NCBI GenBank assembly: GCA_021372415.1
Contig: JAJFUM010000007.1
Location: 1 to 34,004 of the forward strand
Reading direction: 5' to 3'
DNA: 34,004 bases
From: Deltaproteobacteria bacterium
GTDB lineage: Bacteria > Desulfobacterota > Syntrophia > Syntrophales > UBA5619
The translations under genes were made by a program, and so were the position numbers. The notes below the pieces were generated by a model that was given only the letters and a program-made list of their open reading frames with translations, had not been told where the DNA came from and ran no database searches. Of the stretch, positions 2,509 through 22,362 are shown piece after piece (position 1 is the stretch's first letter; each line of letters begins with the position of its first letter).

Positions 2509-3489
2509 GTGAAACGGTTCATCTTTGCCCCATTGGCCATCGGAATCCTGCTCTTCCTGGCCTCACCGCCGGCCCTGGCTGAAGCGCCACGGACCGTCTC
2601 CTTCATCCCCCAGTGGCTCCCCCAGGCCCAGTTCGCTGGTTACTACATGGCCTTTGAAAAGGGGCTCTACCGGAAAAACGGGATCGATGCGATGATCCTC
2701 CGCGGCGGACCGGAGTACCCCCCCTCAGAGCTCCTCGCCCGCAACCGGGTCAACTTCACCACCATGTTCCTCTCCACTGCCATCCAGCTTCGCGATCAGG
2801 GGCTCCGGCTGGTGAACATCGGTCAGATCGTCCAGCGCTCCGGCTTCATCCTCGTCACGAGGAAGGCTGATGCGATCCAATCCCCGGCCGACCTGAACGG
2901 CCGTGCGGTCGGCATCTGGCCTGATTTTCGTCTCCAGCCCCAGGCCTTTTTCAAGAAATACGGATTGACCGTCAGGACCGTCCCCCAGGGAGCCTCCCTG
3001 AATCTCTTTCTGCGAGGCGGCGTCGCGGCCGCGTCGGCGATGTGGTACAACGAATACCACACCCTCATCAACTCCGGCTTCAACGAGGACGAACTCCAGG
3101 CCTTTTTCTTCTACCGCCATGGCCTCAACTTCCCCGAAGACGGCCTCTACTGCCGTGAGGAGACCTTCCGGCGGGATCCCGAGCTCTGCCGCCGCTTCGC
3201 CTTCGCCTCCATGGAGGGCTGGCAATACGCCTTCGCCAACCCCGAGGAGACCCTGGACGTGGTGATGCGCTACGTCCGCGAGGCCAACATCGGCACCAAC
3301 CGCGTCCATCAGAGGTGGATGCTGGACAGGATGAACGACCTGATCCTTCCCATGGGAAGCCGGACGGCCTTCGGTCACCTCGACCGGGCGGACTACCTCC
3401 GCGTCGCCGGAGAGCTGATGCAAAACGGTCTGATCAAGAAGATCCCCGATTACGGAGCTTTTTATGTCGACTTCAGCCGCCCCCGCTAG
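2509..3489 (+). CDS. Periplasmic NMT1/THI5-like binding protein, probable ligand sensor for the adjacent phosphatase
   Basis: A 326-residue periplasmic binding protein of the NMT1/THI5-like (SsuA/ThiY) class. The start is GTG with GGAG 7 nt upstream. A Sec signal peptide with ALA cleavage site ends near residue 24. The mature N-terminus TVSFIPQWLPQAQFAGYYMAFEKGLYRKNGID is characteristic of the family, as is the later segment SPADLNGRAVGIWPDF. In transporters this class delivers pyrimidines, sulfonates or similar ligands. Here no permease or ATPase follows: the gene overlaps the start of a Cache-HAMP-SpoIIE phosphatase by 26 nt. I infer that it presents a ligand to that receptor, or that its transporter partners lie elsewhere. 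The ligand is unknown. Confidence 0.85.
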   Translation: MKRFIFAPLAIGILLFLASPPALAEAPRTVSFIPQWLPQAQFAGYYMAFEKGLYRKNGIDAMILRGGPEYPPSELLARNRVNFTTMFLSTAIQLRDQGLRLVNIGQIVQRSGFILVTRKADAIQSPADLNGRAVGIWPDFRLQPQAFFKKYGLTVRTVPQGASLNLFLRGGVAAASAMWYNEYHTLINSGFNEDELQAFFFYRHGLNFPEDGLYCREETFRRDPELCRRFAFASMEGWQYAFANPEETLDVVMRYVREANIGTNRVHQRWMLDRMNDLILPMGSRTAFGHLDRADYLRVAGELMQNGLIKKIPDYGAFYVDFSRPR

Positions 3490-6288: not shown

Positions 6289-7488
6289 ATGCTGAAGGAA
6301 ACTTATTTGGAACGGTACGCCGATGTCCTGCTCTGGGCCCTGAAGACCGCCCGGAGAGACCGGTTCCGCAAGCGGGACATCGTCCTCATCCAGTACGACC
6401 GCGCCGCGCTGCGCCTGGCGGAAATCCTCTATGAGCGGCTTGTCGGCGCGGGGTTGAACCCTGTCCAGCGTGTGGGGCTCAGCATTCCCATGGAGCGCGC
6501 CTTCTATGGGAAATCCGGCGACAGGCAGCTCGCCTTCCTCCCTCCCGGAGAACGAGAGTTCTGCGAGGCCGTCAACGGTCGGATCTTCCTGCACGCCCCC
6601 GATTCCCTGACCCACCTGAGGGACATCGATCCGGCCCGGATCGGCCGGGCGCTCGTCGCCCGCAAGCCGCTCCGGGACATCCTGGAGCGCCGCGAACAGG
6701 AGGGCGCCTACGGGTGGACCCTCTGCACGCTGCCGACAGCCGAGCTGGCGGCGCAGGCCCGCACGACCCAGGCGATCTACAGCCGTCAGATCATTCGGGC
6801 CTGTTACCTGGACCGGGAAGACCCGGTCGGCCAGTGGGAACAGATCCGCCGCAACGCCGCCGAGATCAAACGCTGGCTGAGCGGCCTGATGGCGGCTTTC
6901 CTCCACATCGAGTCCGCCCGCTGCGACCTCAGGATCACGCCGGGCCAGAAGCGGCAATGGATGGGGATCTCAGGCCACAATATCCCCAGCTTCGAGCTCT
7001 TCACCTCGCCGGACTGGCGGGGCACCGAGGGGACCTACTATGCCAATCTCCCGTCCTACCGGAGCGGCAACTACGTCGAGGGCGTACGCCTGAGGTTCGT
7101 CAAGGGGACCGCCGTCGGAATCGAGGCCGAGACCGGCAGCGCATTCGTCGCCAAGCAGCTTCGGATGGACCGAGGTGCGGCGCGGATCGGCGAGTTTTCC
7201 CTCACGGACCGGCGCTTCTCCAGGATCGACCGGTTCATGGCCGACACCCTCTTCGACGAGAACTTCGGCGGAAGACACGGGAATTGCCATATCGCCGTCG
7301 GCGCCTCCTATACGGACACCTATGCCGGCGATCCGGCCGAGATGGACGGGACGCTCAAACGAAGGCTCGGATTCAACGACTCGGCCCTCCATTGGGACCT
7401 GGTGAACACGGAGGACAAGCGGGTCACGGCCCATCTGGCCACGGGGGAGCGGGTGGTGATCTACGAGAACGGCCGGTTCTGTTATTGA
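6289..7488 (+). CDS. M29-family metallo-aminopeptidase
   Basis: A 399-residue cytoplasmic peptidase of family M29 (AmpS/AmpT/PepS type), which removes N-terminal residues with a two-metal centre. There is no signal peptide. Conserved regions are MGISGHNIPSFELFTSPDW (probable ligand Glu236), ARIGEFSL (Glu302), ENFGGRHGNCHIAVG (probably His334) and LHWDLV (His368, Asp370). The 66-residue Glu-Glu spacing and the HxD pair match the known M29 site. Length is normal (about 370-415). A GGAAGG lies about 11 nt before the ATG. It sits between two periplasmic redox genes (gaps of 128 and 75 nt), an odd position for a cytosolic enzyme. A link in function is not shown by the sequence. Confidence 0.9.
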   Translation: MLKETYLERYADVLLWALKTARRDRFRKRDIVLIQYDRAALRLAEILYERLVGAGLNPVQRVGLSIPMERAFYGKSGDRQLAFLPPGEREFCEAVNGRIFLHAPDSLTHLRDIDPARIGRALVARKPLRDILERREQEGAYGWTLCTLPTAELAAQARTTQAIYSRQIIRACYLDREDPVGQWEQIRRNAAEIKRWLSGLMAAFLHIESARCDLRITPGQKRQWMGISGHNIPSFELFTSPDWRGTEGTYYANLPSYRSGNYVEGVRLRFVKGTAVGIEAETGSAFVAKQLRMDRGAARIGEFSLTDRRFSRIDRFMADTLFDENFGGRHGNCHIAVGASYTDTYAGDPAEMDGTLKRRLGFNDSALHWDLVNTEDKRVTAHLATGERVVIYENGRFCY

Positions 7489-7563
7489 GCCCGCGCCGAA
7501 CCCTTTGTGCCAGACGGAAGGGCGGCCGAGGGTCGCCACTATCGAGAGGGGGGTTTCAGGGCC

Positions 7564-8502
7564 ATGATGCCATTCATCCAGAGGAATCGGCGCATCCTCA
7601 CCTCGGTTCTTTGCCTGACCGGCATCGCCGTCATGGTGGCCTACGCCCTGTGTCTGGGCTCCTGCAGCTACCTCAAGGGGGACCTCCTGGGTGTGGACCT
7701 CAAGTTCGCGGGGATCTTCTACATGGCCGTGATCCTCGTCCTGGCCCTCCTCGGAAGGTCCTTCCTCTGCATGCTCCTTTTGGCCTTCGGGTTGGGCGGG
7801 GAGATCTTCCTGATCACCTACCAGATCCGGGCCGGCGTCTACTGCCCCTACTGCCTGGCCTTCGCCGCCACGGTCCTGGCGTCCTTCGTGGTCCACTTCG
7901 ATTCCGCCAGGAAGGGAACCGCGGCCCTTGCCGCCGGTGCGGGGCTGGTCTTCTTCCTCTTGGCCTTCTCGGGCACGACGGCGCCGTCCGCGGCCGTTGA
8001 CTCCCCGACCCCCGCCTACGGGCGGGGTCCCGTGGAGGTCCGGATCTACACGGACTACTTTTGCGAGCCCTGCCGCGCCGAAGAGGCAGAGGTGACGGCC
8101 CGCGTCGCTCCCCTGGTGGAAAGGGGCCTCATCCGCGTCACCTTCGTCGATACGCCGGTCCACGACGAGACGGTCCTCTACGCCGGCCGTTTCCTCTCGG
8201 CGCTCAACGCGGAAAAAGACGGGGGGCTCCCCCTGGTCCTCCGGGTGCGCGCCGCCCTCTTCGAGGCGGCCGGCCAGGGGATCAGGACCCCTTCGGACCT
8301 GGACGCATTCCTGAAGCGCAAGGGGATCTCTCTCAAGCCGCTCGACACGGCCCCGGCTTTCAAGGCCTATGGCAATCTCCTGAAGGAGGACCGGATCCAG
8401 TCCACGCCCACCTGCGTCATCGTCAGGCCGGGCGGGAAAAGGACCTTCACCGGCAGGGAAGAGATCATCAAGGCCCTGCAGGAGCTGAAGGGCGGCTCCT
8501 AG
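7564..8502 (+). CDS. Vitamin K epoxide reductase (VKOR) domain fused to a thioredoxin-fold (DsbA-like) domain
   Basis: A 312-residue membrane protein that should both regenerate and carry out disulfide formation in the periplasm. An in-frame GTG exists at 7507, but the ATG pair at 7564/7567 lies behind a GAGAGGGGGG stretch and directly precedes the first helix. The VKOR part (about 8-135) has hydrophobic helices, loop cysteines Cys30 and Cys34, GVDLKFAGIFYMAVI, and the catalytic CPYC (94-97) at the membrane border after EIFLITYQIRAGVY. The thioredoxin-like part (about 155-308) has IYTDYFCEPC (active site 167-170) and the cis-proline STPT (280-283). VKOR-Trx fusions are known in bacteria lacking DsbB. 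The C-x3-C loop pair is closer than the usual wider spacing. DsbC-like isomerase is encoded two genes upstream. Confidence 0.88.
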   Translation: MMPFIQRNRRILTSVLCLTGIAVMVAYALCLGSCSYLKGDLLGVDLKFAGIFYMAVILVLALLGRSFLCMLLLAFGLGGEIFLITYQIRAGVYCPYCLAFAATVLASFVVHFDSARKGTAALAAGAGLVFFLLAFSGTTAPSAAVDSPTPAYGRGPVEVRIYTDYFCEPCRAEEAEVTARVAPLVERGLIRVTFVDTPVHDETVLYAGRFLSALNAEKDGGLPLVLRVRAALFEAAGQGIRTPSDLDAFLKRKGISLKPLDTAPAFKAYGNLLKEDRIQSTPTCVIVRPGGKRTFTGREEIIKALQELKGGS

Positions 8503-8602
8503 AGGGGATCGACATACAGACGTCCCTCCCCGGGGCTACGCGGGCCAAGGCCTCTCCGGCTTCCGGCCCCTACTGGAAAGGGATTCACCGGGAGCGGGAT
8601 GT

Positions 8603-8631
8603 AAAAAAACGGCCGGGACTTGCCCGGCCGT
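8603..8631 (-). terminator. Intrinsic terminator of the minus-strand cytochrome gene
   Basis: A perfect 9-bp stem (8609-8617 with 8623-8631, ACGGCCGGG/CCCGGCCGT) encloses a 5-nt loop. Read on the minus strand it is followed by seven T (complement of 8603-8609). It lies 25 nt after the stop of the cytochrome gene. In the plus direction the stem is followed by a poor T tract, so it would stop transcription from the VKOR side only weakly. Confidence 0.88.
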
Positions 8632-8655
8632 TCGCCTTTCGGATTGTCGATCCCC

Positions 8656-9126
8656 TCACTTCTTGTCGCGTATCTTGGCGTGGCACTCGCTGCACTTGGC
8701 CTTGATCTCGCCGAGTTTGGTCTTGATCAGATCACCGTCCTTCTTGGAGGCGGCGGTGGAAAGTTCCCTGGCCAGGGCCGCCAGGGACAGAGTGATCTCC
8801 TTGGCCACAGGATTGGCCAGGCCGTTGCCGGTCTTCTGGGCCTCCGCGGCCATGGCAGTGGCATCCTTGGCAATGGCCTCGAACTTCTTGGCCCCGGCGT
8901 TCTTGTCCGTGTCGGCCTTCGTGTCCGCTTGACCCTTGCCCTCCTGACCCTTGCCCTCGGGAAGCTTCGTGTCCCCGAGGTTTTTGTTCATGGCAGCCAT
9001 CCACGCGGCGCGCGCCTGCATCAGAACCTGGGAAGGCCGCAACGGCGGCTTGGACTCTCCGGCGGCGACGACCATGACGGCGGCCGCAAAGATGCTGATG
9101 GTCAAAAACGCGATCATCCTTTTCAT
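8656..9126 (-). CDS. Small secreted c-type cytochrome (cytochrome c'/c556-like) with a charged low-complexity insert
   Basis: A 156-residue exported protein with a signal peptide ending near residue 22 and a single haem-attachment motif CSECH (145-149), 7 residues before the end. A haem site at the extreme C-terminus of a helical protein is the hallmark of class II cytochromes c (c', c556). The central part (about 55-81) is rich in Lys, Gly, Asp and Gln with GKGQ repeats, unlike the usual compact four-helix core. The ATG follows AAGGAG at good spacing, a promoter is visible upstream and an intrinsic terminator downstream, so it is a single-gene unit. Electron transfer or gas/redox binding is possible. 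Covalent haem attachment is inferred from the motif, and the exact subfamily is uncertain. Confidence 0.75.
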   Translation of the reverse strand: MKRMIAFLTISIFAAAVMVVAAGESKPPLRPSQVLMQARAAWMAAMNKNLGDTKLPEGKGQEGKGQADTKADTDKNAGAKKFEAIAKDATAMAAEAQKTGNGLANPVAKEITLSLAALARELSTAASKKDGDLIKTKLGEIKAKCSECHAKIRDKK

Positions 9127-9174
9127 AGGGCACTCCTTAACAGCGACAATGGGGTCCTCATGAAACGATTGTCC

Positions 9175-9204
9175 TTTATACCATCCCGATTTCGGGGAAG
9201 TCCA
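9175..9204 (-). promoter_or_regulatory. Candidate sigma-70 promoter of the cytochrome gene
   Basis: On the minus strand TGGACT (9199-9204), an 18-nt spacer and TATAAA (9175-9180) precede the ATG at 9126 by about 50 nt. The spacer holds a perfect 12-bp palindrome CCCGAAATCGGG (9185-9196), which could be an operator. Confidence 0.5.
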
Positions 9205-9287
9205 GCCCTTTTCTCTTCACGGTCCGCCGGCAATTTGCGGCGGGGTCGCCATCCCCGTCGTCCCGAACCCCGCGGCCGCACTGGGCT

Positions 9288-10862
9288 TTATCCGACCACG
9301 GGGATCTCGTAGCGGGGTGCCAGGGCCTCGTCGACTCCCTCGCGGTCCTGTTTCAGGGCATAGGGGAGGTAGTTGAGGATGTCCTGGGCGGTGATCCCGT
9401 CCTGACCCTTGTCCTCCGCAGCGAGGTCGCCCGCCAGGCCGTGGAGGAAGACCCCCTTGCGAACCGCCTCTTCCAAGGGCAGCCCCAGACCGGACATGGC
9501 TGCAATCGTGCCGGTCAGGACATCCCCTGCCCCGGCCGTCGCCATCCCCGCATTCCCGCTCAGGTTGATGAAGACGCGCCCATCGGGCGTCCCGATCAGG
9601 GAATGGGCCCCCTTGAGGACGATCCAGGCCCCGAGGCGTCCTGCGGTCTCCTGGAGGCAGGGGATCCTCCGCCCTTCGACCTCGGCGATGGTAAGGCCCA
9701 TGAGCCGCGCCATCTCCCCGGGGTGTGGGGTCAGGACCGTCGGCGCCTTGCGTCTCCGGAGGATCTCCGGATCTTCGGCCAGGGTCGTGATCCCGTCGCC
9801 ATCCACAAGCAGGGGTTTGTCCACGGCAGCGGCCATCTCCCGGACGAGTTGCCGGGTCTCGGAATCCAGAGACAGGCCGGGGCCGATGACAACCCAATCG
9901 ACCCGACCGGACAGGTCCAGGAGGCCCTCCCGGTTGGCCGCGGAGAGCGTGCCCTCGGGGGTCTCCGCCTGGGGGACGAAGACGATTTCGCTCCCCCGGA
10001 CCGCCAGGAAGGGGGTCATCGACCGGGGGGCGGCCAGCCGCGCGTAACCTCCCCCCGACTTGAGATAGGACATGGCGGCAAAGTAGGGGGCACCGAAATA
10101 CCCCGCAGCCCCGGCGATGAACAGGCAGTCCCCCATTGATCCCTTATGGGCCGTGGGCGGGCGGAGCGGCAGGGGGAGGAAGCCGTTCGTTTCGATCTTG
10201 AGCGCCTCGTCCTCCTCGAGGGCAGGGGGAAAGGAGATGCGGCAGAGGTGGAGCGTCCCGCCCAGCCCGAAGCCGGGGTAGAGGAGATTTCCGAGTTTCG
10301 GCAGGCCGAAGGTCACGGTATGGTCCGCCCGGACGGCCGCCCCCATCACCGCGCCTGTGTCCCCTTGGACGCCCGAGGGGATGTCGAGGCTCAGGACCGG
10401 CCTGCCGCTGGAATTGATCAGGTCGATCGCCTCCCGGTAGGCCCCTTCCACCTCGCGGTCGAGGCCTGTCCCGAAGAGGGCATCGACGATCCCGTCGCAG
10501 TGGAGGACCGCGGACCTCAGGGCCGAGATCCCTTCGACCCGGGTCGCTTCGATGGGGAGCTTCTGGAGGATCCCCCAGTTGGTCCTGGCGGCCCCTTTGA
10601 AGCGCGCGGGATCGCTGAAGAGGAAGACCCGCGGCGTCCCCCCTTCGGCCAGAATGTACCGCGCCACGACCAGGCCGTCGCCGCCGTTGTTCCCGGCGCC
10701 GCAGAACAGGACGATCCTTCTGCCGGCCACGCCGAATTCCCGGGAGAGGACCTCGAAGGAGGCCCTGCCGGCATTCTCCATGAGGATCTCCTCCGGGATC
10801 CCGAACGTTTCAACGGCCTGCCGGTCCATCGCCCTCATCTGGGCCACGCTGCAAACCTTCAT
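9288..10862 (-). CDS. nnr: Bifunctional NAD(P)H-hydrate epimerase / ADP-dependent NAD(P)H-hydrate dehydratase
   Basis: A 524-residue metabolite-repair enzyme. The N-terminal YjeF_N domain (about 1-215) epimerises R-NAD(P)HX to the S form. It shows MENAGRA, the nucleotide-binding GAGNNGGDG (55-63), DALFGTGLDREV (127-138) and DIPSGVQGDTG. The C-terminal YjeF_C ribokinase-like domain (about 230-505) dehydrates S-NAD(P)HX with ADP. It shows KGSMGDCLFIAGAAGYFGA, LTPHPGEMARL (377-387), VLKGAHSLI and GNAGMATAGAGDVLTG (436-451). Length matches the bifunctional bacterial form. The ATG has GGGAGGG upstream. The YyaL-like gene ends 135 nt upstream on the same strand. The last residues (PRYEIPVVG) lie beyond the domain and are unremarkable. 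Confidence 0.96.
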   Translation of the reverse strand: MKVCSVAQMRAMDRQAVETFGIPEEILMENAGRASFEVLSREFGVAGRRIVLFCGAGNNGGDGLVVARYILAEGGTPRVFLFSDPARFKGAARTNWGILQKLPIEATRVEGISALRSAVLHCDGIVDALFGTGLDREVEGAYREAIDLINSSGRPVLSLDIPSGVQGDTGAVMGAAVRADHTVTFGLPKLGNLLYPGFGLGGTLHLCRISFPPALEEDEALKIETNGFLPLPLRPPTAHKGSMGDCLFIAGAAGYFGAPYFAAMSYLKSGGGYARLAAPRSMTPFLAVRGSEIVFVPQAETPEGTLSAANREGLLDLSGRVDWVVIGPGLSLDSETRQLVREMAAAVDKPLLVDGDGITTLAEDPEILRRRKAPTVLTPHPGEMARLMGLTIAEVEGRRIPCLQETAGRLGAWIVLKGAHSLIGTPDGRVFINLSGNAGMATAGAGDVLTGTIAAMSGLGLPLEEAVRKGVFLHGLAGDLAAEDKGQDGITAQDILNYLPYALKQDREGVDEALAPRYEIPVVG

Positions 10863-10997
10863 CCCTTTTCCCTCCCCCTTCTCCGGACCCCGAACACCGG
10901 AGGCTCGCCGCCGGAACCGCTCCCGGGGCTTGCCGGTTCCTGTTGCGGGGATTATACGCCAAACCCGAAACGATGCAACCCATCCGAACCGGCGGCC

Positions 10998-13094
10998 TCA
11001 ACGCCGGAATTGTTCTTCGAGCCGCCCCGCCAGGGTCTCGGGGTCCGTTTCCGGCGGCTGGCAGGAAAGGCCCGTGCAGAGGTAGGCCGTCGCCCGGCCG
11101 CCAAGGGCATGCATGGGTCCGGCGAAGGGGGCCAGGGTGGCGATCTCCGGTTCGACCTCTTCCTCGGGGCGCAGCAGGACAGTCAGCGAGGGGAGGTAGG
11201 AACGCCTGAGGACGGTCAGCAGGCCGGCCGTGTCCCGGGCTCCCGGACGGCCGGCGACGACCGCCTCGCATGAAGGGGCCGCCAGGAGTTCCAGGGCGGC
11301 CATCCACTGGGCATGGGCAGAGGGCTGTCCCCGGAGCGATCCAGAGAAGGCGCGGCCCAGTGCCGCCGCCTCCCCTTCCAGGCGGGGATCACCGGTGAGC
11401 CTTCCGAGGCGGATGAGGTTCATCAGGGTCACGGCATTTCCGGACGGGACGGCCCCGTCGTACCCCTCTTTGAGCCGGGCAGGCAGGGCCTCGCCATCGT
11501 CGGGCGTCATGAAGAATCCCCCGTCGGGATCGCGGAAGCGGTCCTCCAGGGCCTTCTGAAGGGCCAGGGCCTCCCGAAGGTCGCCAGTGGCGAAGCCCGC
11601 CTCGTAGCATTCGATCAGGCCCCAGATCAGGAAGGCGTAATCGTCCAGATACCCCTTCACCGCCGCTTCTCCTTTGCAGTAACGGTGGAGGAGTCGACCG
11701 TCGGCCGTCCTCAGACGTCCCAGCAGAAACGCGACCGTCTGCCGGGCCGCCTCCAGATACCGCGGCTCGTTCAGGACCCACGATGCCCGGGCCAGCGCTG
11801 CGATCGCCAAACCGTTCCAGTCGGTGAGGACCTTGTCGTCCAGGCCGGGCCTGGCCCGGTTCCCGCGGGCGGCCAGGAGGCGCGAACGGATCGCCTCCAG
11901 GCGCTGGAGGAGCTCCGCCTCTCCGAGCCCGTGGTCGCGGGCGATCCGCTCAAGGGGAACCGCACGGTGCAGGATGTTCCACCCTGTCGTTCCCCCCGTC
12001 GCCGGATCAATGAAATTCCCCCCTTCGGCGAGGCCGAAGGCCTCCTGGGCGATCCGGGCATCCTCGTGGGAAAGCAGCTTCCGGACCTCGTCGGCCTGCC
12101 AAAGATAAAAGCGGCCCTCCTCCCCTTCGCTGTCGGCGTCCCGGGCCGCGCAGAAGCCGCCCTCGGGGGTCCGCATCTCGCCCAGGAGGTAGTCGAGGAC
12201 CTCCCGGAGCGTCCGGGCATGGGCTTCGTCGCCCGTTGCCTGAAAGGCCTCCCCATAGGCCAGCGCGAGCAGGGCTTGGTCGTAAAGCATCTTCTCGAAG
12301 TGGGGAACGAGCCATTGCCGGTCGGTGCTGTAGCGGTGAAATCCCCAGCCCAGATGATCGAAGATCCCGCCTCGGCGCATCGCCCCGAGGGTCTCCTCCG
12401 CCATCTTCAGGGCTTCGTCCGCACCGGTCCGCCGCCAGTAGCGCAGGAGGAAGACCAGTTGATGGGGCATGGGGAACTTCGGGGCATCCCCGAAGCCGCT
12501 GTGGGCCGTGTCGTACTCCCCTCTGAGCGCATCGAAGGCCGAATCCAGGACCTGCTCGATCTGGAAATTCTCCTCGCGCTTCCTGGCCGGCCCGAGCGAG
12601 GCCACCATCCGGGTGGCGGCTTGGTCCACCTCGCCGCGGCGGGTCCTCCAGAGGTCAGCGAGCCGGGGGATCAGATCGAGGAGCCCAGGCCGTCCCCACC
12701 GTTCCTCCTTCGGGATGTAGGTGGCCGCAAAGAAGGGACGCCTCTCGGGCGTCATGACGATGGTGAGCGGCCAGCCGCCACTGCCGGTCATGAGCTGGCA
12801 GGCCCTCATGTAGATGCCGTCGACGTCCGGCCGCTCCTCGCGGTCAACCTTGACGCAGACGAAGGCCCCGTTGAGGAGGGCCGCGACCTGATCGTCCTCG
12901 AAGGATTCGTGGGCCATGACGTGGCACCAATGGCAGGTGGAATAGCCGATGGAGAGGAAGACGGGCCGGTCCTCCCGACGGGCCCGGGCGAAGGCCTCCT
13001 CTCCCCAGGGATACCAATCGACGGGATTTGCCGCGTGCTGGAGAAGATAGGGGCTCTTCTCGTCCTTAAGGCGGTTGAGTCGGTCGTTGCGCAT
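10998..13094 (-). CDS. YyaL/Spata20-like protein: thioredoxin-like (DUF255) plus alpha/alpha-barrel domain
   Basis: A 698-residue cytoplasmic protein. The N-terminal domain (about 1-165) begins [23 protein letters not shown] and has the diagnostic [10 protein letters not shown] with Cys54-His-Trp-Cys57, followed by [12 protein letters not shown] and [14 protein letters not shown]. The rest (about 200-690) has the pattern of the six-hairpin glycosidase / N-acylglucosamine 2-epimerase fold: [47 protein letters not shown] and [17 protein letters not shown]. The family is widespread but its substrate and reaction are not established, so no enzymatic function is assigned. GAGGA stands about 9 nt before the ATG. 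Length is typical (650-720). It may be transcribed with nnr downstream. Confidence 0.93.
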
Positions 13095-13220
13095 CGGTCT
13101 TTTTCCTCAGGCGGGCTGTTCAACGGGAGGCACTGCCCCTCCCTCCGTTTCCCGTTCCCCCTGCAACGGACCTATGCCGGCAGCGGGCGGCATCCTGGAA
13201 GGAACGCCCATCGCAGGGGC

Positions 13221-14924
13221 CTATCCCCCGAGGGTCTCGGCCAGGCGTCGGATCCCGCCGACCGGATCGCCGTGAAGGTGGAACCGGATCACGCGGCGGC
13301 CGGCATTGACAAGGGCCTGACGGTCACCGAAGGCCTGCGCCGCCTTGAGGATCCCGAAGCTCAGTGACGAGGCCGCCGCCCCAAGCTCATCGGGGATCGG
13401 GACATCGCGGGCGTCGTCGGCCGTCAGCTGGATGAAGAGCCCCTTCCCCGCATCGCCCTTGTGGAGTTGGCCGGTGGAGTGGAGGAAGCGGGGCCCGTAG
13501 CCGACGGTCGCGGCCAGCCGGAAACGCGCCCGGATGGCTAGGCGGAGCCTTTCCAGGGCTTCTCCGGTCCTGGGGGTGGGTGTCACAAAGGCCTGGATCG
13601 CCGCATAGGCGCCGGTCGCGGCCTGCCCGAGAAAGGAGGCCAGACAGTTCTCCACTTCCGCCGCCGAAGCGGGACCATAGACGGAGATGCCCGGCGTCCG
13701 GAGAACAGGCTCCTCCGGCGGAAGTTCTCCTTTCTCGCGGTATGTGGCGATCATCTTTCGGGCCAAAGCCTTGGCTGACTCCACGTCTGGCTGATCAAAG
13801 GGGTTGATCCCGAGCCGCGCCCCAGCCACGGCTGTCGCCACTTCCCAGAGGAAGCACTGCCCGCCCAGGTCGTAGGGGTCGGCAATCCTCAGATCAACGA
13901 CGGGATGCCCCGCTGCCGCAAGGGCCCGGAGTTTCTCCTCGCCGGTTTCGTCACCGCCCGCGCGCAGGAAGACAAAGCAGCGGTCCGGTCCGTACGCCTC
14001 CGGTCCCTCCAGTTCCTCCCCGACGACGGGCAGGATCCCCCTCCCCTCCTTGCCGGTGCTCTCGGCGATGAGCTGCTCCAGCCAGTCGCCGAAAGGGGTG
14101 ATGGACGGGGAAAAAAAGAAGGTCAACTTGTCGCGCCCCTGCCCGGCCAACCTCCCGAGAAGGGCGCCGAGAGCCGCGCCGCTCGCCGCCCCCTGACGCT
14201 GCTTCTCTGAGAATTCCTGCCGCGCCGCGGCCGCCGCCCTCTCGATCAGGCGTCCCGTATCCATCCCGATCAAGGCCGCCGGGACCAGGCCGAAGAAGGA
14301 GAGGGCCGAATAGCGTCCGCCGATCTCGGGGTCGTTGAGGAACGCGTGGCGGAAACGGCGCGCCACGGCGAGCTCGGCCAGGGCGCTCCCCGGATCGGTG
14401 ATCGCCGCGAAATGCCGCCCTGCCTTGTCGTTGCCCAATCGATCAGCGGCCAAGTTGTAGAAGTAACGGAGGAATGAGAAGGTCTCCACCGTCCCCCCGG
14501 ACTTCGTGGAGACCACAAAGAGCGTCCGGTTCACGTCGAGTCGTTCGGTAAACCCGAGAACGGCCCCCGGGTCCGTGCTGTCCAGAACGGCCAGGTCGAG
14601 AAAGCCCGGCGCCGCGCCGAAAATCCTCCGGAAGACCTCCGGGGCAAGGCTCGATCCTCCCATCCCGAGCAGGAGGACAAAACGGAACCCTTCGGCGCGC
14701 ACGGCCTCCACGAAGGCGCCGATCTCCGGGAGCCTTTCCGTCATGATCAGCGGGCTCTTCAGCCAGCCGAGACGGTCGGCGATCTCTCGCGGATCCGGTT
14801 TCCAGAGGGTATGGTCCCGCTGCCGGATCCGCTCGACGATCCGGCCCTCTCTAAGGGCCCTGAGGGCCTCTTCCTCGACCTCCCGGCAGGAAGCCGGGTG
14901 AAACGCCATCTGCGCCGTCATCAT
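13221..14924 (-). CDS. pgi: Glucose-6-phosphate isomerase
   Basis: A 567-residue phosphoglucose isomerase, which interconverts glucose 6-phosphate and fructose 6-phosphate. I start it at the ATG at 14924 because AAGGAAGG lies 6 nt upstream; an in-frame GTG at 14930 would sit directly on that ribosome-binding site. Family motifs are VLLLGMGGSSLAPEVFRRIF, VVSTKSGGTVETFSFLRYFY (phosphate-binding loop), GGRYSALSFFGLVPAALIGMD, NPFDQPDVESAKALA and the C-terminal LHKGDAGKGLFIQL with the conserved Lys. The QLTADDARDVPIPDELG ending resembles the isomerase half of bifunctional transaldolase-isomerases, but no transaldolase domain is present here. The transketolase gene ends 181 nt upstream on the same strand, so sugar-phosphate enzymes are grouped. 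Confidence 0.93.
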   Translation of the reverse strand: MMTAQMAFHPASCREVEEEALRALREGRIVERIRQRDHTLWKPDPREIADRLGWLKSPLIMTERLPEIGAFVEAVRAEGFRFVLLLGMGGSSLAPEVFRRIFGAAPGFLDLAVLDSTDPGAVLGFTERLDVNRTLFVVSTKSGGTVETFSFLRYFYNLAADRLGNDKAGRHFAAITDPGSALAELAVARRFRHAFLNDPEIGGRYSALSFFGLVPAALIGMDTGRLIERAAAAARQEFSEKQRQGAASGAALGALLGRLAGQGRDKLTFFFSPSITPFGDWLEQLIAESTGKEGRGILPVVGEELEGPEAYGPDRCFVFLRAGGDETGEEKLRALAAAGHPVVDLRIADPYDLGGQCFLWEVATAVAGARLGINPFDQPDVESAKALARKMIATYREKGELPPEEPVLRTPGISVYGPASAAEVENCLASFLGQAATGAYAAIQAFVTPTPRTGEALERLRLAIRARFRLAATVGYGPRFLHSTGQLHKGDAGKGLFIQLTADDARDVPIPDELGAAASSLSFGILKAAQAFGDRQALVNAGRRVIRFHLHGDPVGGIRRLAETLGG

Positions 14925-15105: not shown

Positions 15106-17160
15106 TTACCGACCCAGGAGGCCCTTGGCCGCCGCCGCCACTGCCTCGACGGTGATCCCGAACTTCTCGTAGATGGTCTTGTAAGGGGCGCTGGCGCCGA
15201 AACGGTCGATTCCCACCACGGCCCCCTCCAGGCCGACGTAATGCTCCCAGCCCAGGCGGACCCCCGCCTCGCAGGCGACCCTTGCCCGGACGGCCGGGGG
15301 CAGGACCCGGTCCCGGTAGTCTTGCGGCTGGCGGTCGAAGAGATCCCAACTCGGCAACGAAACGACGCGGACGCGAATCCCCTCTGCGGCCAGCCTTTTT
15401 CCTGCCGCCAGGGCGATCTCGACCTCCGAGCCGGTCCCTATAAGAATCGCCTCGGGATCCGCCCCCGACTCCCAGAGGACATAGCCGCCCTGTCTCAGGC
15501 CTGACGCGGCTGCAAGCTGGCCCCGGTCCAGGACGGGCAGATTCTGACGGGTGAAGATGAGGGCCGTGGGACCGCTGGTGTTGAGGAGGGCCGCCCGCCA
15601 GGCCTCCACCGTCTCGTTGGCGTCGGCGGCGCGGATGACCGACAGCCCCGGGATCACCCGCAGGCTCATCAACTGCTCGATGGGCTGGTGGGTGGGGCCG
15701 TCCTCGCCGACACCGATGCTGTCGTGGGTGAAGACGTAAATGACCCGAAGGCCCATCAGGGCCGCCAGTCGGATCGAGGGCCGCATGTAGTCGGCGAAGG
15801 TGAAAAAGGTCCCCGTAAAGGGGAGGAGTCCCCCGTGGAGGGCCATCCCGCCGGCGATCGCCCCCATCGCGTGTTCCCTGACCCCGAAGTGGATATTCCT
15901 CCCGCCGTGGCCCCACTCCCCGCCGATCGCCCCCTCCCGGCAGGCGGGCGGATCGCCCGGTCTCTGGAAATCCCCCATCCCCTTGAGCCAGGTGAAGGTG
16001 GAGGGGTTCAGGTCGGCCGAGCCGCCCACGAGTTCCGGGATCCGGGCCGCGACCGCCTGCAGGGCCGCCTCGGAGGTCTTGCGCGTGGCCACGTCCTTCG
16101 TGCCGGCCGGATAGGCAGGAAGGGCCTCCTCCCAGCCGGCCGGGAGCTCCCCCTTCATGACCCGCTCGAAATCGGCCGCCTCGGCCGGATACTCGGCCCG
16201 GTAGCGGCCGAAGACCCCTTCCCAGGCCCGCTGGAGATCGCGTCCCCGCCCCTTCGCCTGGCGGTAGAAGGCCAGGACGTCCTCGGGGACGAAGAAGGCG
16301 GCATCGGTCGGCCAGCCCAGGTTCTCCTTGGCCGCGCGGACCTCGTCGGCTCCAAGGGGGGCGCCGTGCGCAGCGCTGGTGTTCTGCTTTGCCGGCGCCC
16401 CGCAGCCGATCGTGGTCCGCAGGCGGATAAGAGATGGCCGTGACCTGTCGGCCTTTGCCTCGCCAATGGCCCGGTCCACCGAAGCCACGTCGTTTCCGTC
16501 CGCCACGGGGATCACCTGCCAGCCTGCGGCGGAAAAACGGCCGTCGATGTCCTCGGTGAAACACAACGTCGTGGAGCCGGCCAGCGAAATCCGGTTGTCA
16601 TCGTAAAGGACGATGAGCTTCCCCAGGCCAAGATGGCCCGCCAGGGCTGCGGCCTCGGCCGAGAGCCCTTCCATGAGGTCGCCATCGCTGGCAAAGACGT
16701 AGGTGAAATGATCCACGATCGCATGCCCGGGCCGGTTGAAACGGGCCGCCAGATGGGCCTCGGCCAAGGCCATCCCCACCGCGGCGGCGAAGCCCTGTCC
16801 CAGAGGCCCCGTCGTCATCTCCGCACCGGGCGGATGGCGGCGTTCTGGATGGCCGGGGGTCTTGCTTCCCCACTGGCGGAAGGCCTTCAGGTCCTCCAGG
16901 GAGAGGTCATAACCGGTCAGATAGAGGACCGCGTACAGCAGCATCGAGGCGTGGCCGGCCGACAGGACGAAGCGGTCCCGGTCGGCCCAGAGGGGATCGG
17001 CCGGGTTGTACCGAAGCCGCCGAGTCCAGAGGGTGTATGCCGCAGCGGCCGCACCCATCGGCATGCCGGGATGACCGGACTTGGCCTTCTCGATGGCGTC
17101 CGTTGCCAGGAAACGAATGGCATTGATGCACTGCTGTTCCAGGGGAACCTGCTCGCTCAT
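15106..17160 (-). CDS. tkt: Transketolase
   Basis: A 684-residue thiamine-diphosphate enzyme moving two-carbon units between sugar phosphates in the pentose-phosphate pathway. Typical blocks are [24 protein letters not shown] (His30), [37 protein letters not shown] and the ThDP motif [22 protein letters not shown]...DDNRIS. The middle pyrimidine-binding part has [20 protein letters not shown] with the catalytic Glu, and [14 protein letters not shown]. The C-terminal domain has [21 protein letters not shown]. The first glycine of the usual GDG motif is Ser, which is tolerated in the family. AGGAGG lies just before the ATG. A divergent signalling operon starts 232 nt away. Confidence 0.97.
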
Positions 17161-17252: not shown

Positions 17253-17281
17253 TTGACAGACCCCGGCCGACCCGATATCTT
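17253..17281 (+). promoter_or_regulatory. Candidate sigma-70 promoter of the binding-protein/hybrid-kinase operon
   Basis: A perfect TTGACA (17253-17258), a 17-nt spacer and TATCTT (17276-17281) stand about 110 nt before the ATG at 17392. TATAAC directly downstream is an alternative -10. Confidence 0.6.
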
Positions 17282-17391: not shown

Positions 17392-18477
17392 ATGAAACGC
17401 AACCCTCCCAATGGTCTTCCCCTCATCCTCGGCCTCATTTGTCTCTTTCTGCTTCCGGTCGGCTGTTCCAGGGACGAAAAGGTCAGGATCGCCGTGATGA
17501 CCAAACTGGAAGCAGGATCGATTGTTGGTTCCAGTGAAGTCAACGCGGCCAAGATGTTTCTCGAGGAACACCGCATCAGGCACATCGAGATCGTCCCCTT
17601 CGACGATGGATGGGACCCGGAAAAGACGAAGGTAGCCTACCGGGAAGTCAAGAGCGAGGGGATCCGTTTCCTCGTCACCTCCCACGTCTCCACCTGCGCC
17701 CTGGCAATCGCCGACGAGATCAACCAGGACGGGATCCTGACCTTCGTGACCGGGGCGACAACGGACCTGCTCTCCAAAAAGGACGATTTCATCCTGAGGA
17801 ACATCCAGGATGTGGAGGAGGAACAGAGGAGCATCGCCGAATACATCAACCGGATGCCCGCCAAGAGGCTCCTGATCGTCCGCGATACGGACAACCACAG
17901 CTACACGTCACCGGCCCTCCAGTATCTGAAGCCACAACTGACCAAGGAGAAGGTCAGCGTCATTGACATCTCCATGTCCAAACTCGACCTCGCCTCCCTC
18001 GAACGGCAAATGAGGCCCGAGAATTTTGATCTTCTATACCTGCTCGTCGGCGGGTACAAGAGCACCGCGGGCGGCATCGCGCAACTCGCCAAAAAACTGC
18101 GGCCGGAAGCCAAGATCATCTACACGCCCTGGATGAAGACCCCGACCCTCCTGGAGACGGCCGGCCAGTCCATCCGGGATTCGATCATCCCCTCCCACTA
18201 TCCCCCCCGGACGGAAAGCCCATCCGTCAAGGACTACATCGAGCGTTTCAAGAAACGCTACAGTTACGCCCCGACCTACATCAGCCTCAACGTCTATTCG
18301 GCGATCCAGATCCTCGCGGAGGCGATCCAGGCCGGTCACCGCACCCCCGAAGGGGTCAAGAAATACATTCTCGAAAGGGGCACCGTGCGGACCGATTTCG
18401 GACCGGTCACCTTCGACCGGTACGGCGACACGAGGATGACGCTCTACTTCATCACCGACATCCCGGGAGAATTCTAG
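17392..18477 (+). CDS. Type-1 periplasmic binding protein (Leu/Ile/Val-like), partner of the following hybrid kinase
   Basis: A 361-residue exported binding protein. The signal peptide (MKRNPPNGLPLILGLICLF...) ends in LLPVGC with Cys25. The lipobox is atypical because Pro sits at -3, yet lipidation remains possible. The mature protein has a type-1 periplasmic-binding fold: VRIAVMTKLEAGSIVGSSEVNAAKMFLEE, GIRFLVTSHVSTCALAIADEINQDGILTFVTGATTDLL and a C-terminal YISLNVYSAIQILAEAIQ. GAGGAGG stands 4 nt before the ATG. It lies 24 nt upstream of a membrane hybrid histidine kinase and no transporter gene is near, which favours a sensory role. The ligand is unknown; branched amino acids or amides would be typical of the fold. 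Confidence 0.85.
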   Translation: MKRNPPNGLPLILGLICLFLLPVGCSRDEKVRIAVMTKLEAGSIVGSSEVNAAKMFLEEHRIRHIEIVPFDDGWDPEKTKVAYREVKSEGIRFLVTSHVSTCALAIADEINQDGILTFVTGATTDLLSKKDDFILRNIQDVEEEQRSIAEYINRMPAKRLLIVRDTDNHSYTSPALQYLKPQLTKEKVSVIDISMSKLDLASLERQMRPENFDLLYLLVGGYKSTAGGIAQLAKKLRPEAKIIYTPWMKTPTLLETAGQSIRDSIIPSHYPPRTESPSVKDYIERFKKRYSYAPTYISLNVYSAIQILAEAIQAGHRTPEGVKKYILERGTVRTDFGPVTFDRYGDTRMTLYFITDIPGEF

Positions 18478-18501
18478 CCCCGAAGATTAAGGAACCACCC
18501 T

Positions 18502-21057
18502 ATGAGATCGGTACGGATCATCTCGCTTCTCATTGAAGCCCTCACTCTGGCCGCGACGGTCCTGTTCGTGGTCCTTCTCTTCCAACTCCTCCAGACCCAT
18601 GTCAGGACCAATCTGATCCAAAGCCAGACCTCGGTCATCGACAAGGTCGACATCACCATCGAGGACTACGTCAAAAATGCCCTGATCAATTTCGACAACT
18701 ACCTGAGGCTTTCGGAAAGAAGCGACGCCCAGTTCCTATTCCAGGATTTCTCCGACATCTACCATGTCAGCCCCCGCCTGTCCGTAGAGAGGATCATCCG
18801 GAAAGAGGCGGCCAGCCAGATCTTTCCGGGATACGACCTGTCCAAGAGCCACCTGGCGGATCTCCTCCGGTCGATCCACGACGACAAGACTTACTTCTCC
18901 TCAGCCTTCCGGTCCGCCGAGACGGAGAAGCTCAGCTTCTATATCGCCAAGGCCCGGCCCGGGGGATTTGTCGTCGGCCGCATCGGCCTGGACCAGATCA
19001 GGAGCAATCTGGCACGCCTGGCCGAATACCGGGAAAGCATCATCATGATCGCCACCAAGGACGGCTACGTCCTCTCCAGCACCCGGAGCGATCTTCCCCT
19101 CAACGTCCTGCCGGCGGAGAACGAAACAGAGATCCGGATCCTCGGACGGGAATACCTCATCACCCGCAAGACCAGCCGGATCTTCCAGAACGACCTCGTA
19201 ATCCTGACGCCGCTCACGACGGTCTACCGGATCCTGAAATCGATCAAGGGCTATTCGCTGATCTTCATCCTGTTTATGGTCGTCATCTCCCTGGTGAAGG
19301 TCTTCGGACAGACCCGCTTTCTGTTCAAGCCGCTTAATACCTTCAGTCAGATCCTGAGGAACTGGGAAGTGGACCGGGACCATGCGGTCATGCCGGGACG
19401 TTTTCTGGCCTATCGGGAGATCTCCGTCCTCTACCAGAGTTTCAAGGAGAAGATCGAGCAGATCCGGGAGCTCGTCACCAATCTGCGGCAGAACGAACAG
19501 GACCTGGACAAGATGAGGAAGTACCTGAAGAACATCATCGATTCCATGCCCTCCATGCTGATCTCCGTGGACGAGGAAGGGATCATCAAGGAATGGAACA
19601 ACGCCGCAGTGAAGTACACCGGACTCAACGCCTCGGAGGTCCTCGGAAGACGGTTCTGGGAGGTCATGCCTGCCCTAAGGAAATACGAGCCGGATTGTCG
19701 AGACGCCCTCAACAACCGGCGGCAAAAGCAGCTCGGCCGGGAGGTGCTCCAGAACGGCAAGGAACTCTACATGGACATCACCCTCTTCCCCCTGATCCAG
19801 AACGGCGTCCACGAGGTGGCATTCCGCCTGGACGACGTGACCGTCCAGGAGAGGACCGAACAGCAGCTCCGGCAGGCCCAAAAGATGGAGACCATCGGGA
19901 CCCTGGTAGGCGGGATCGCCCACGACTTCAATAACATCCTGGCCGGGATCGTGGGGACGCTGTCCATCATGAAGCGCTACCTCCACCTCTCCCAGGAGAT
20001 CCCCAGGCAGAAGATGGAAGACTATCTCAACACCATGGAAAAGGCCTCCACGCGGGCCACCGACATGATCCGGCAGATGCTGATCCTGGCCCGTAGGCAG
20101 GAGCTGGCCCTGGTGCCCGTCGAGCTCAACGGGATCATCGAGCAGGTGGTCAAGATCTGCACCAACACCTTCGACAAGAAGATCGAGATCGAAGTCCGTC
20201 CTTACCTGGGCCACGCCATGGTCAAGGCCGATGCCAGCCAGATCGAGCAGGTGTTGCTCAATCTGGCTGTCAACGCCATGCACGCCATGACCATGATGCG
20301 CCCAGACGGCAGGACACTGGGAGGCAAGCTCATCATCTCCCTGACGAAGATCTACGCGGACCCCTATTTCTGCAGTGGCCATCTCGAGGCCCAGCCGGAG
20401 CTCTCCTACTGGATCCTCGGCGTCCAGGACACCGGCGTGGGGATGGACGTCAAGACCGTGGCCAAGATCTTCGATCCTTTCTTCTCCACGAAGGAAAAAG
20501 GCAAGGGTTCGGGCCTGGGACTGACGATCGTCTACAATATTGTGCGGGAGCACAAAGGCTTTATCGACGTCTATTCCGAACCCGGGAAGGGATCGACCTT
20601 CAACGTCTTTCTCCCCGTCCTCGAAGAGGTCTTCGCGGTCGAGCAGGTCGGGGCGGAGCCCTGCGTCCCCGAGGGGGAGGGGACGGTCCTGATCATCGAC
20701 GACGAGGAAGCCATCCGCATGGTGACCACGGAGATGTTGGAGCTCTGCGGTTACAGGGCCCTCACCGCGGGGAGCGGCACCGAGGGAATCTCCCTGTACC
20801 GGCAGTACCGGAATGAGATCCAGGTGATCCTCCTGGACATCAACATGCCGGTCCTGTCTGGGACTGAAACGATGCTCAAACTCAAGGAGGTCGACCCGGC
20901 CGTGAGGATCCTGGTCACATCGGGATTCATCCGGGATGAGAGGGCCGAGGCCCTCATGAACCTCGGCGCGGCCGGCTTCGTCCAGAAACCCTTTACCCTG
21001 TCCCTCCTGGCCAGGGCGATCGCCGATGCGATCGAGAAAAAGACGCCCGCCAATTGA
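18502..21057 (+). CDS. Membrane hybrid sensor histidine kinase (sensor - PAS - HisKA - HATPase - receiver)
   Basis: An 851-residue hybrid kinase. TM1 lies at about 9-30, an extracytoplasmic sensor of about 210 residues follows (not confidently assignable, Cache-like in layout), then TM2 at about 250-268. A HAMP-like/coiled segment occupies about 275-340 and a PAS domain about 341-455 (IIDSMPSMLISVDEEGIIKEWNNAA). HisKA carries GGIAHDFNNIL with phospho-acceptor His474. The ATPase motifs are N box NLAVNAMHAM (Asn591), DTGVGMD (643-649) and GSGLGLTI (669-676). A receiver (about 728-845) has Asp733/734, phospho-Asp779 in LLDINMP, and Lys829 in QKPF. All catalytic residues are intact. The output regulator is not encoded nearby. 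The upstream binding protein probably supplies the signal (inferred). Confidence 0.95.
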   Translation: MRSVRIISLLIEALTLAATVLFVVLLFQLLQTHVRTNLIQSQTSVIDKVDITIEDYVKNALINFDNYLRLSERSDAQFLFQDFSDIYHVSPRLSVERIIRKEAASQIFPGYDLSKSHLADLLRSIHDDKTYFSSAFRSAETEKLSFYIAKARPGGFVVGRIGLDQIRSNLARLAEYRESIIMIATKDGYVLSSTRSDLPLNVLPAENETEIRILGREYLITRKTSRIFQNDLVILTPLTTVYRILKSIKGYSLIFILFMVVISLVKVFGQTRFLFKPLNTFSQILRNWEVDRDHAVMPGRFLAYREISVLYQSFKEKIEQIRELVTNLRQNEQDLDKMRKYLKNIIDSMPSMLISVDEEGIIKEWNNAAVKYTGLNASEVLGRRFWEVMPALRKYEPDCRDALNNRRQKQLGREVLQNGKELYMDITLFPLIQNGVHEVAFRLDDVTVQERTEQQLRQAQKMETIGTLVGGIAHDFNNILAGIVGTLSIMKRYLHLSQEIPRQKMEDYLNTMEKASTRATDMIRQMLILARRQELALVPVELNGIIEQVVKICTNTFDKKIEIEVRPYLGHAMVKADASQIEQVLLNLAVNAMHAMTMMRPDGRTLGGKLIISLTKIYADPYFCSGHLEAQPELSYWILGVQDTGVGMDVKTVAKIFDPFFSTKEKGKGSGLGLTIVYNIVREHKGFIDVYSEPGKGSTFNVFLPVLEEVFAVEQVGAEPCVPEGEGTVLIIDDEEAIRMVTTEMLELCGYRALTAGSGTEGISLYRQYRNEIQVILLDINMPVLSGTETMLKLKEVDPAVRILVTSGFIRDERAEALMNLGAAGFVQKPFTLSLLARAIADAIEKKTPAN

Positions 21058-21201: not shown

Positions 21202-21984
21202 TCACTGGATCGGAAAATCGAAATAACTTTCCGGGAAGGGCTCTCCCCGGAGGGTGAAGTGCCACCACTCCTGATCGTAGTTCTTGAAGCCGTGCTTGTC
21301 CATGAGGACCTTGAGGAGCATCCGGTTCATCCTCTGCTGCAGACCGACCCGCGGGTTCAGGGGATGGGAGAGTTCGTGGAAGCAGTCGAAGCCCGTCCCC
21401 ATGTCCACGCTGTTGTCCTTGAAGCGCCGACCGGCAGGTGCATAGCAGGCCTGAAGGGAATCCCCCGGTCGGTACTCGTCCTGGGCAGGGACAGGAACGG
21501 GGACGATGGTCAGATCCACAGTGCTGCCCCGGCTGTGCCCGGAACGACTGGCGATGTAGCCGTCCTTGAAGAGGTTCCGCTTGTCCACCGTGGGATAGAA
21601 CTCCTGGCGGGTGAGGGTGTCGTCGACGTCCTTCGCCCACCGGACGAAGTGGTCCACCGCCCGCTGGGGCCGGTAGCAGTCGTAGACCTTCAGCGAGAGC
21701 CCGAAATCCTTCAGCTCTTCCTGGACCCTGGACAGGGATTCCGCGGCCTTCCTCGTCAGGATGCACTTGGGGGCCAGGTAACCGTCCACCCCTCGGCCGA
21801 CGAAGTTGTGGGGTCCGAAGTAGCGGATGTCCAGTTCGATCGAGGGGATTAAGGCCTTCACATCCACAAATCCCTCCGGAAGACCTCCCTGGGCCCGGCA
21901 GGGAACGGCCGGTGCGAGCAGCACGCCGAGGGCCAGAACGACCGCCCAGGGGAAAAACACGATTCTCCAACACCGATTTTTCAT
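21202..21984 (-). CDS. VanX-like D-alanyl-D-alanine dipeptidase (M15D), secreted
   Basis: A 260-residue zinc dipeptidase. The frame is open to 22254, but the ATG at 21984 has GGAGGAACC before it and starts a signal peptide (cleavage near residue 31). VanX-type motifs are VYDCYRPQRAVDHF (Arg105), SGHSRGSTVDLTIV (zinc ligands His150 and Asp157) and EWWHF (catalytic Glu239, ligand His242). The spacing fits VanX/DdpX. Vancomycin-type VanX is cytosolic; a signal peptide suggests a periplasmic role in peptidoglycan dipeptide recovery, as proposed for DdpX-like proteins. No vanHA or dpp genes are nearby, so resistance is not implied. A promoter and a strong leader hairpin lie upstream. Confidence 0.9.
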   Translation of the reverse strand: MKNRCWRIVFFPWAVVLALGVLLAPAVPCRAQGGLPEGFVDVKALIPSIELDIRYFGPHNFVGRGVDGYLAPKCILTRKAAESLSRVQEELKDFGLSLKVYDCYRPQRAVDHFVRWAKDVDDTLTRQEFYPTVDKRNLFKDGYIASRSGHSRGSTVDLTIVPVPVPAQDEYRPGDSLQACYAPAGRRFKDNSVDMGTGFDCFHELSHPLNPRVGLQQRMNRMLLKVLMDKHGFKNYDQEWWHFTLRGEPFPESYFDFPIQ

Positions 21985-22050
21985 GGTTCCTCCGTCCCGA
22001 TCATGGAATTCGCGTGACCTCTGTCCCCACCCCCCGGCCGACAGCGCGGC

Positions 22051-22074
22051 GCATCGGACGGGGGGATCCGATGC
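22051..22074 (-). other. Perfect 8-bp hairpin at the start of the dipeptidase leader
   Basis: GCATCGGA (22051-22058) pairs with TCCGATGC (22067-22074) around an 8-nt loop. It falls at about the predicted transcription start of the VanX-like gene. It could be a stabilising 5' stem-loop or an operator dyad. Confidence 0.5.
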
Positions 22075-22080
22075 CTTCCG

Positions 22081-22109
22081 TTTATGCCCACTTACTCCCA
22101 CTGGGTCAA
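22081..22109 (-). promoter_or_regulatory. Candidate sigma-70 promoter of the VanX-like gene
   Basis: On the minus strand TTGACC (22104-22109), a 17-nt spacer and CATAAA (22081-22086) predict a start near 22074. This leaves a leader of about 90 nt before the ATG at 21984. Confidence 0.5.
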
Positions 22110-22167
22110 AGCGTCCCGAGGATATCACGATCGGGCCCCGGGTGCAAAAGATCTTTCCTCCCGGGCC

Positions 22168-22196
22168 TTGCCATCGCGGGGATTTTGCGATATCGT
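22168..22196 (+). promoter_or_regulatory. Candidate promoter of the small basic ORF
   Basis: TTGCCA (22168-22173), a 17-nt spacer and TATCGT (22191-22196) lie about 47 nt before the ATG at 22243. Both boxes are imperfect. Confidence 0.35.
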
Positions 22197-22242
22197 GCGT
22201 CTGTTTCCATTTTGCCGGAATCATGGATGACGGGAGGGCAGG

Positions 22243-22362
22243 ATGAGCAAGCACAAAAAGACAGAACGGAAGAAGGAACTGGACCGCAGGCGCCGCAGAA
22301 GGGAGAAGAGCCTGAAGCTCCGGGCAAAGGAAAACAAAGGCGCTGCGAAGGAGAAAAAATAG
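22243..22362 (+). CDS. Very basic 39-residue hypothetical protein
   Basis: A small ORF, MSKHKKTERKKELDRRRRRR followed by EKSLKLRAKENKGAAKEKK. About half of its residues are Lys or Arg, it has no hydrophobic segment and it is predicted fully helical. GGGAGG precedes the ATG at suitable spacing. A possible promoter lies upstream and a strong hairpin downstream (22382-22405), as expected for a short independent transcript. The composition suggests nucleic-acid or ribosome binding. Short proteins of this Lys/Arg-rich type occur in many genomes without known function. I cannot exclude a chance ORF, but the biased composition, good ribosome-binding site and flanking signals favour a real gene. Confidence 0.6.
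   Translation: MSKHKKTERKKELDRRRRRREKSLKLRAKENKGAAKEKK

Follow-up and report, generated by a model that had tools for sequence, protein, structure and literature searches.

An apparently horizontally acquired binding protein-dCache kinase gene pair in a Syntrophales genome and its family of proposed LuxP-LuxQ-like sensor cassettes

The genes considered here lie on a 34,004-nucleotide (nt) stretch of DNA from a Deltaproteobacteria bacterium of the order Syntrophales (assembly GCA_021372415.1, contig JAJFUM010000007.1, positions 1 to 34,004), referred to below as the window. On its plus strand, an open reading frame (ORF) for a 361-residue binding protein (17392-18477) is followed after 24 nt by an ORF for an 851-residue hybrid histidine kinase (18502-21057), the arrangement described in the original prediction, which was made from the sequence alone. 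That prediction had also proposed that transporter genes are absent from the vicinity and that no response regulator adjoins the kinase. Both points held among the neighbouring ORFs scanned with Pfam (part of the window's ORFs), where neither a permease or ATP-binding cassette (ABC) ATPase nor a response-regulator gene adjoining the pair was seen. The pair is one horizontally acquired member of a broad family of binding protein-dCache sensor cassettes with a LuxP-LuxQ-like organization; its acquired origin and the dCache nature of the kinase sensor both go beyond the original prediction.

The upstream gene product matches Peripla_BP_6 with 104 bits (cut-off 31.7), and its structural model (mean predicted local distance difference test score, pLDDT, 91.8) has a two-lobed, LivJ/LivK-like fold, with a Z score of 36.4 to PDB entry 4gnr over 328 residues (root mean square deviation, rmsd, 2.3). 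The alignment behind the model drew on 35 of the 80 named loci described below. The best PDB sequence match is LIVBP (1z15, E = 8e-17), so that the earlier label "Leu/Ile/Val-like" stands as a description of the fold and says nothing about the ligand. Residues Ser-100 and Ala-122/Thr-123 resemble the carboxylate site of LIVBP, and Pro-246-Trp-247 lies at or beside the position of LIVBP Glu-226, two alignments differing by one position. These likenesses make a small carboxylate a plausible ligand. The N terminus is hydrophobic, consistent with a signal peptide, and carries a lipobox-like sequence, LLPVGC, in which Cys-25 (17464-17466) is the predicted lipidation site of a putative lipoprotein.

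The downstream gene encodes two membrane segments, starting at about residues 3 and 244 and separated by ∼215 residues in which no Pfam match exceeded its cut-off, followed by PAS (about residues 341-450; 19522-19851), HisKA (19897-20103, with His-474 at 19921-19923), HATPase_c (20230-20619), and Response_reg (20686-21021) domains, each of which exceeded its Pfam cut-off. His-474, the N-box, the G1 and G2 boxes, and the receiver residues Asp-779 (20836-20838) and Lys-829 are all present, and the kinase does end in its own receiver, as predicted. The periplasmic sensor (residues 31-252; 18592-19257) was modelled with high confidence as a dCache, in which a long N-terminal helix leads into a double PAS-like fold (mean pLDDT 91.1; Z = 16.5 to 8w7p over 202 residues, rmsd 2.8). 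The model was built from an alignment that included 52 sensors of the 80 named loci. Pfam dCache_1 scored this sensor at 14.5 bits against a cut-off of 45, and several sensors paired with such binding proteins likewise fell near or under the cut-off. A search of the genome for Hpt domains, among the checks originally proposed, returned seven matches. The one short ORF among them, of 104 residues, directly adjoins another hybrid kinase, so nothing ties it to this one.

Within the phylum of the window, the binding-protein relatives with the highest scores (at most 87 bits) mostly lie directly 5′ of receptor genes. Of the 39 best-ranked relatives, whose receptor and transporter labels were entered by hand, 22 lie before a kinase gene, one belongs to a tandem of two binding-protein genes followed by a kinase, two lie before a GGDEF or GGDEF-EAL gene, and nine before LivH; five were unassigned, one of which (L087) has a dCache kinase at that place. 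A scan seeded with six kinase-linked binding proteins provided the 80 named loci, whose record titles point to Desulfobacterota, Spirochaetota, Nitrospirota, Anaerolineae, and Gamma- and Betaproteobacteria. Neighbours were labelled with phmmer against reference proteins, and with Pfam on samples only. The downstream gene was a kinase in 60 loci, a different dCache gene or a truncated one in 14, and a GGDEF gene in one; it was of unknown type in two and off the contig in two, and in one locus the binding-protein ORF was uncalled. Thus, 75 of the 80 loci have a dCache-type receptor gene next, and the intergenic gap is 30 nt or less in 70 of 77. A permease was the downstream gene in none of the 80, a figure that, because the seeds were kinase-linked, describes conservation within that branch and is not an unbiased rate. 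At 17 orthologous loci (L260-L276; 33-60% identity), a homologous sensor is encoded by the next gene in 16 (58-263 bits). The gene-neighbourhood analysis called for by the original prediction therefore revealed the conserved gene pairing that characterizes LuxPQ-like receptors, and the conservation is far beyond chance.

The output halves at these 17 loci differ, being HisKA_2, HisKA plus receiver, or HisKA alone; HisKA_2 was found in the five intact genes of that type covered by the scan, and L268 has it in the second part of a split gene. Identities of binding protein and sensor to the window pair were correlated (Spearman 0.87, n = 16 orthologous loci, a list that leaves out L269 and L277-L290), and most loci with the highest identities in both parts gave no match to the window's kinase domain. 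Covariation of the binding protein with the kinase sensor, another of the checks originally proposed, was observed across 60 named pairs (four of 64 were dropped for want of a kinase match): binding-protein and dCache distances correlated with r = 0.78, and with a partial correlation of 0.74 given the kinase, versus a partial correlation of 0.09 between binding protein and kinase given the dCache. None of 2000 permutations reached the mirror-tree correlation, and the rank correlations held in subsets. Under simple linkage, the dCache would be expected to track the kinase part of its own polypeptide no less closely, but the value observed was 0.42. Binding protein and dCache have most likely been inherited together as a sensor cassette with a replaceable output half.

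Phylogenetic analysis showed that the binding protein shares ancestry with receptor-linked binding proteins. In a 59-row tree, all 28 receptor-linked rows, the window included, formed one group (support 100/97) that contained none of the 23 transporter-linked rows. Because the window row formed a long branch in this tree, three placements on the transporter side were examined by approximately unbiased (AU) tests, and all were rejected (p-AU = 0.0036, 0.02, and 0.0097). Sequence profiles also favoured the receptor-linked set for the window protein (172 versus 130 bits). Grouping with transporter-linked proteins and separation from the kinase in relatives had been named at the outset as observations that would count against a signalling role; neither was found, and the proposal that a transporter-type binding protein serves signalling is supported to that extent. 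As a means of finding further family members in the class, the profile test separates poorly: the 19 class loci scored gave 191-200 bits, among transporter-linked rows, and the window protein, once removed from that profile, also fell there (144 bits).

Individual residues partly follow the same division. Asp-132 and Asn-168 are kept in 80 of 80 named relatives, and Trp-247, part of the cleft-side motif Thr-245-Pro-246-Trp-247 (18124-18132), in 78 of 80. The Cys-25 column holds Cys in 78 of 80 and in all 17 loci L260-L276. Trp-247 occurs in 28 of 28 receptor-linked versus 0 of 23 transporter-linked rows, and a lipobox in 21 of 28 versus 3 of 23. Trp-247 was rejected as a perfect marker, since five of the 23 transporter-linked rows have Trp one column on, and a further transporter-linked protein (L282, from the other phylum introduced below) also aligns Trp at this position. 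Loss of the acidic residue beside Trp-247 was likewise rejected as a rule: Glu or Asp is present in 44 of 80 named relatives, and the window protein has Pro-246.

The closest relatives of the binding protein (42-60% identity) are found outside its own phylum. The phylum to which locus L143 belongs, presumably Spirochaetota because the L143 record is titled "Spirochaetales bacterium", provided 15 matches in 14 of 296 genomes (313-465 bits), versus a best match of 87 bits in the window's phylum. These relatives broke the long branch of the window protein: in an 84-row tree, from which six long-branch rows were left out and in which L282 was labelled transporter-linked from its neighbour, the window protein was nested among them (99/98), and the labels, receptor-linked or transporter-linked, again changed only once. 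No convincing orthologue came from the window's own lineage: the sensor gave matches in two of 155 genomes of the same class, namely its own and a chance match (L049, in a stretch with ribosomal-protein-type genes), and in one of 395 genomes of the phylum, its own. A single-sequence scan of genome contigs for own-lineage orthologues gave nothing. Among plasmids, tblastn gave no match to the sensor and, for the binding protein, matches of 23-25% identity among those listed. Most probably, the pair entered this lineage long ago by transfer from the phylum of the "Spirochaetales" record, the direction being suggested by where the relatives are found.

That a spirochaete-like genome is instead the source of the contig or stretch, through contamination or faulty assembly, was considered, given that the assembly is 6.4% contaminated and that the binding-protein orthologues sit in another phylum. 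However, the gene beside the pair (15106-17160, minus strand), which we take to be a transketolase from its sequence, without a Pfam call, is 79-81% identical in four genomes of the same genus, with weak partial matches in two further ones, and at most 54% identical in the other phylum. The contig is native to the host lineage on this evidence. Tetranucleotide usage of the pair likewise follows the window flanks (0.90 and 0.85) and not the other-phylum loci (mean 0.52); the GC fraction of the pair is 0.586, compared with 0.647 and 0.627 in the flanks. Contamination is thus a most improbable account and was rejected.

The two genes probably constitute one sensor, in which a ligand-loaded lipoprotein docks on the dCache domain and sets kinase activity. 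The binding protein would be exported, anchored through a lipid at Cys-25, and take a small ligand into its cleft; it would then dock on the kinase from the adjacent gene, at its periplasmic dCache domain, much as LuxP docks on LuxQ, whose periplasmic domain is also of the double-PAS/Cache type. Closure driven by ligand may alter the dCache dimer and shift the balance of kinase and phosphatase activities, with phosphate passing from His-474 to Asp-779 and on to an unlinked Hpt protein or response regulator. It is unlikely, though conceivable, that the signal is something other than the closed binding protein, which might instead supply the dCache pocket with ligand or enrich ligand there, or that the two parts respond to separate ligands. 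dCache domains usually bind ligands themselves, and the dCache of a fused homologue, PDB 5ERE, is listed under cytosine in PMC8694187, citing Wu et al.; the co-divergence of the two parts fits direct contact as well. Considerably less probable is service to an unlinked ABC transporter, the place beside the kinase reflecting shared regulation only. The LivK/LivJ fold is compatible with this, and a single binding protein may work with more than one partner. Evidence to the contrary comes from the position of the protein in the receptor-linked part of the tree, where no transporter-linked row occurs, the skewed distribution of the lipobox, and the lack of a permease next to any of the 80 relatives of the kinase-linked seeds. 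Neither hallmark of a Liv-type transporter binding protein, a neighbouring permease or ATPase among the ORFs scanned or a tree grouping with transporter-linked rows, was found.

Several observations weigh against a docked, two-part sensor. The profile margin of the window protein (172 versus 130 bits) is smaller than that of any other receptor-linked row. The dCache-HAMP-SpoIIE receptor elsewhere in the window nearly equals the kinase sensor on the receptor-linked dCache profile (39 versus 51 bits), which is therefore not exclusive. At one orthologous locus, L269, no receptor adjoins and the next gene runs in the opposite direction. Co-divergence could also stem from joint transfer of neighbouring DNA. 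Finally, adjacency alone is no proof of activation: for the Pseudomonas aeruginosa proteins PA0602, PA4985, and AgtB, encoded near AgtS and AruS, no evidence that they activate these kinases was obtained (PMC11113362).

Comparison with characterized systems places the pair among several partial likenesses. Both of its parts match, in sequence and fold, the single chain of Dret_0059 from Desulfohalobium retbaense (5ERE), a natural fusion of binding protein and dCache parts: the binding protein over residues 32-349 (Z = 33.9, 314 aligned, rmsd 2.9) and the sensor over residues 343-593 (Z = 13.7, 197 aligned, rmsd 4.4). Whereas Dret_0059 is one polypeptide, the parts described here are encoded by separate ORFs, divided by a stop codon and 24 nt, and the output is a hybrid kinase. 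LuxP-LuxQ, NspS-MbaA, and TorT-TorS similarly combine an encoded periplasmic binding protein with a membrane receptor. They use other binding-protein families, in contrast to the Peripla_BP_6 predicted lipoprotein of the present pair, for which contact with the receptor is a proposal. LivJ and LivK share the fold and part of the ligand cleft with the binding protein described here, which differs in having no LivHMGF genes beside it, in lying on the other side of the tree, and in its lipobox and Trp-247. In the three-component systems CuaD-CuaSR and AioX-AioSR, a binding-protein gene likewise lies beside a kinase gene (PMC10384115 and PMC5908839); these systems differ in having an adjoining response regulator and a known ligand, neither of which applies here. 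Binding-protein-activated receptors are treated as a general mechanism in PMC9602780. No description of a LivK-like lipoprotein-dCache family was found in the literature searched, most subscription papers lying outside it, which is weak evidence of novelty.

A single σ70-like match, TTGACA-17-TATCTT (17253-17281, plus strand; 10 of 12 consensus positions), lies 110 nt 5′ of the binding-protein ORF. The "one good promoter" proposed earlier was thus located, but it is suggestive only, because shuffled sequences yielded 0.5 matches on average. Downstream of the pair, an M15 dipeptidase is encoded on the minus strand (21202-22254); further neighbours identified by Pfam include PGI-like, prismane, glucokinase, and SpoU proteins, among others, and the flanking genes identified are mostly metabolic enzymes. 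At 10146-11273 and 11313-13367, ORFs of 375 and 684 residues lie side by side, neither with a Pfam or NCBIfam match. The other sensory unit that had been proposed within 20 kb (2509-5425) was confirmed as regards its domains only: an NMT1/THI5-like binding protein is encoded directly 5′ of a dCache-HAMP-SpoIIE phosphatase. Homologues of this phosphatase (137-155 bits) occur at L277-L280, loci on the spirochaete side, in the vicinity of a binding protein-kinase pair.

Among the related loci, variants of the arrangement were also seen. In 11 records of Gamma- or Betaproteobacteria type (L190, L192, L194, L197, L200, L201, L203, L209, L213, L214, and L218), an EAL-domain gene lies directly 5′ of the pair, possibly forming a three-gene unit. 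Tandem binding-protein genes precede one receptor at L099, L100, L148, L150, and L156, which suggests two inputs per kinase, and a 914-residue frame at L130 (3815-6559) combines Peripla_BP_6 and SBP_bac_5, two binding-protein types, in one chain. At L111, a 696-residue gene without a Pfam match (7201-9291) lies directly 3′ of a binding protein of the receptor-linked type. Two apparent variants were rejected: the 725-residue frame at L037 is not a fusion but LivK and LivH joined through a stretch of N, and the L118 candidate receptor is a TPR-binding-protein fusion.

Binding-protein-activated receptors have so far been scattered examples, and the present pairs constitute a family recognizable from sequence that also supplies a genomic setting for the solved fusion 5ERE. 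That binding protein and dCache travel and diverge together, and the kinase does not, points the experimenter to the two parts in which contact should be sought. Receptor subunits are probably what many genes now annotated as binding proteins of branched-chain amino acid ABC transporters encode. A wider proposal, offered tentatively and at somewhat less than even likelihood, is that these are portable cassettes that cross phyla, in which a lipid-anchored LivK-like protein would have given up transport altogether and now serve solely as a subunit of dCache receptors. Their outputs would be swapped among HisKA, HisKA_2, and GGDEF/EAL types, Dret_0059 would be the fused form, and such sensors may read two ligands simultaneously, one through the binding protein and one through the dCache domain.

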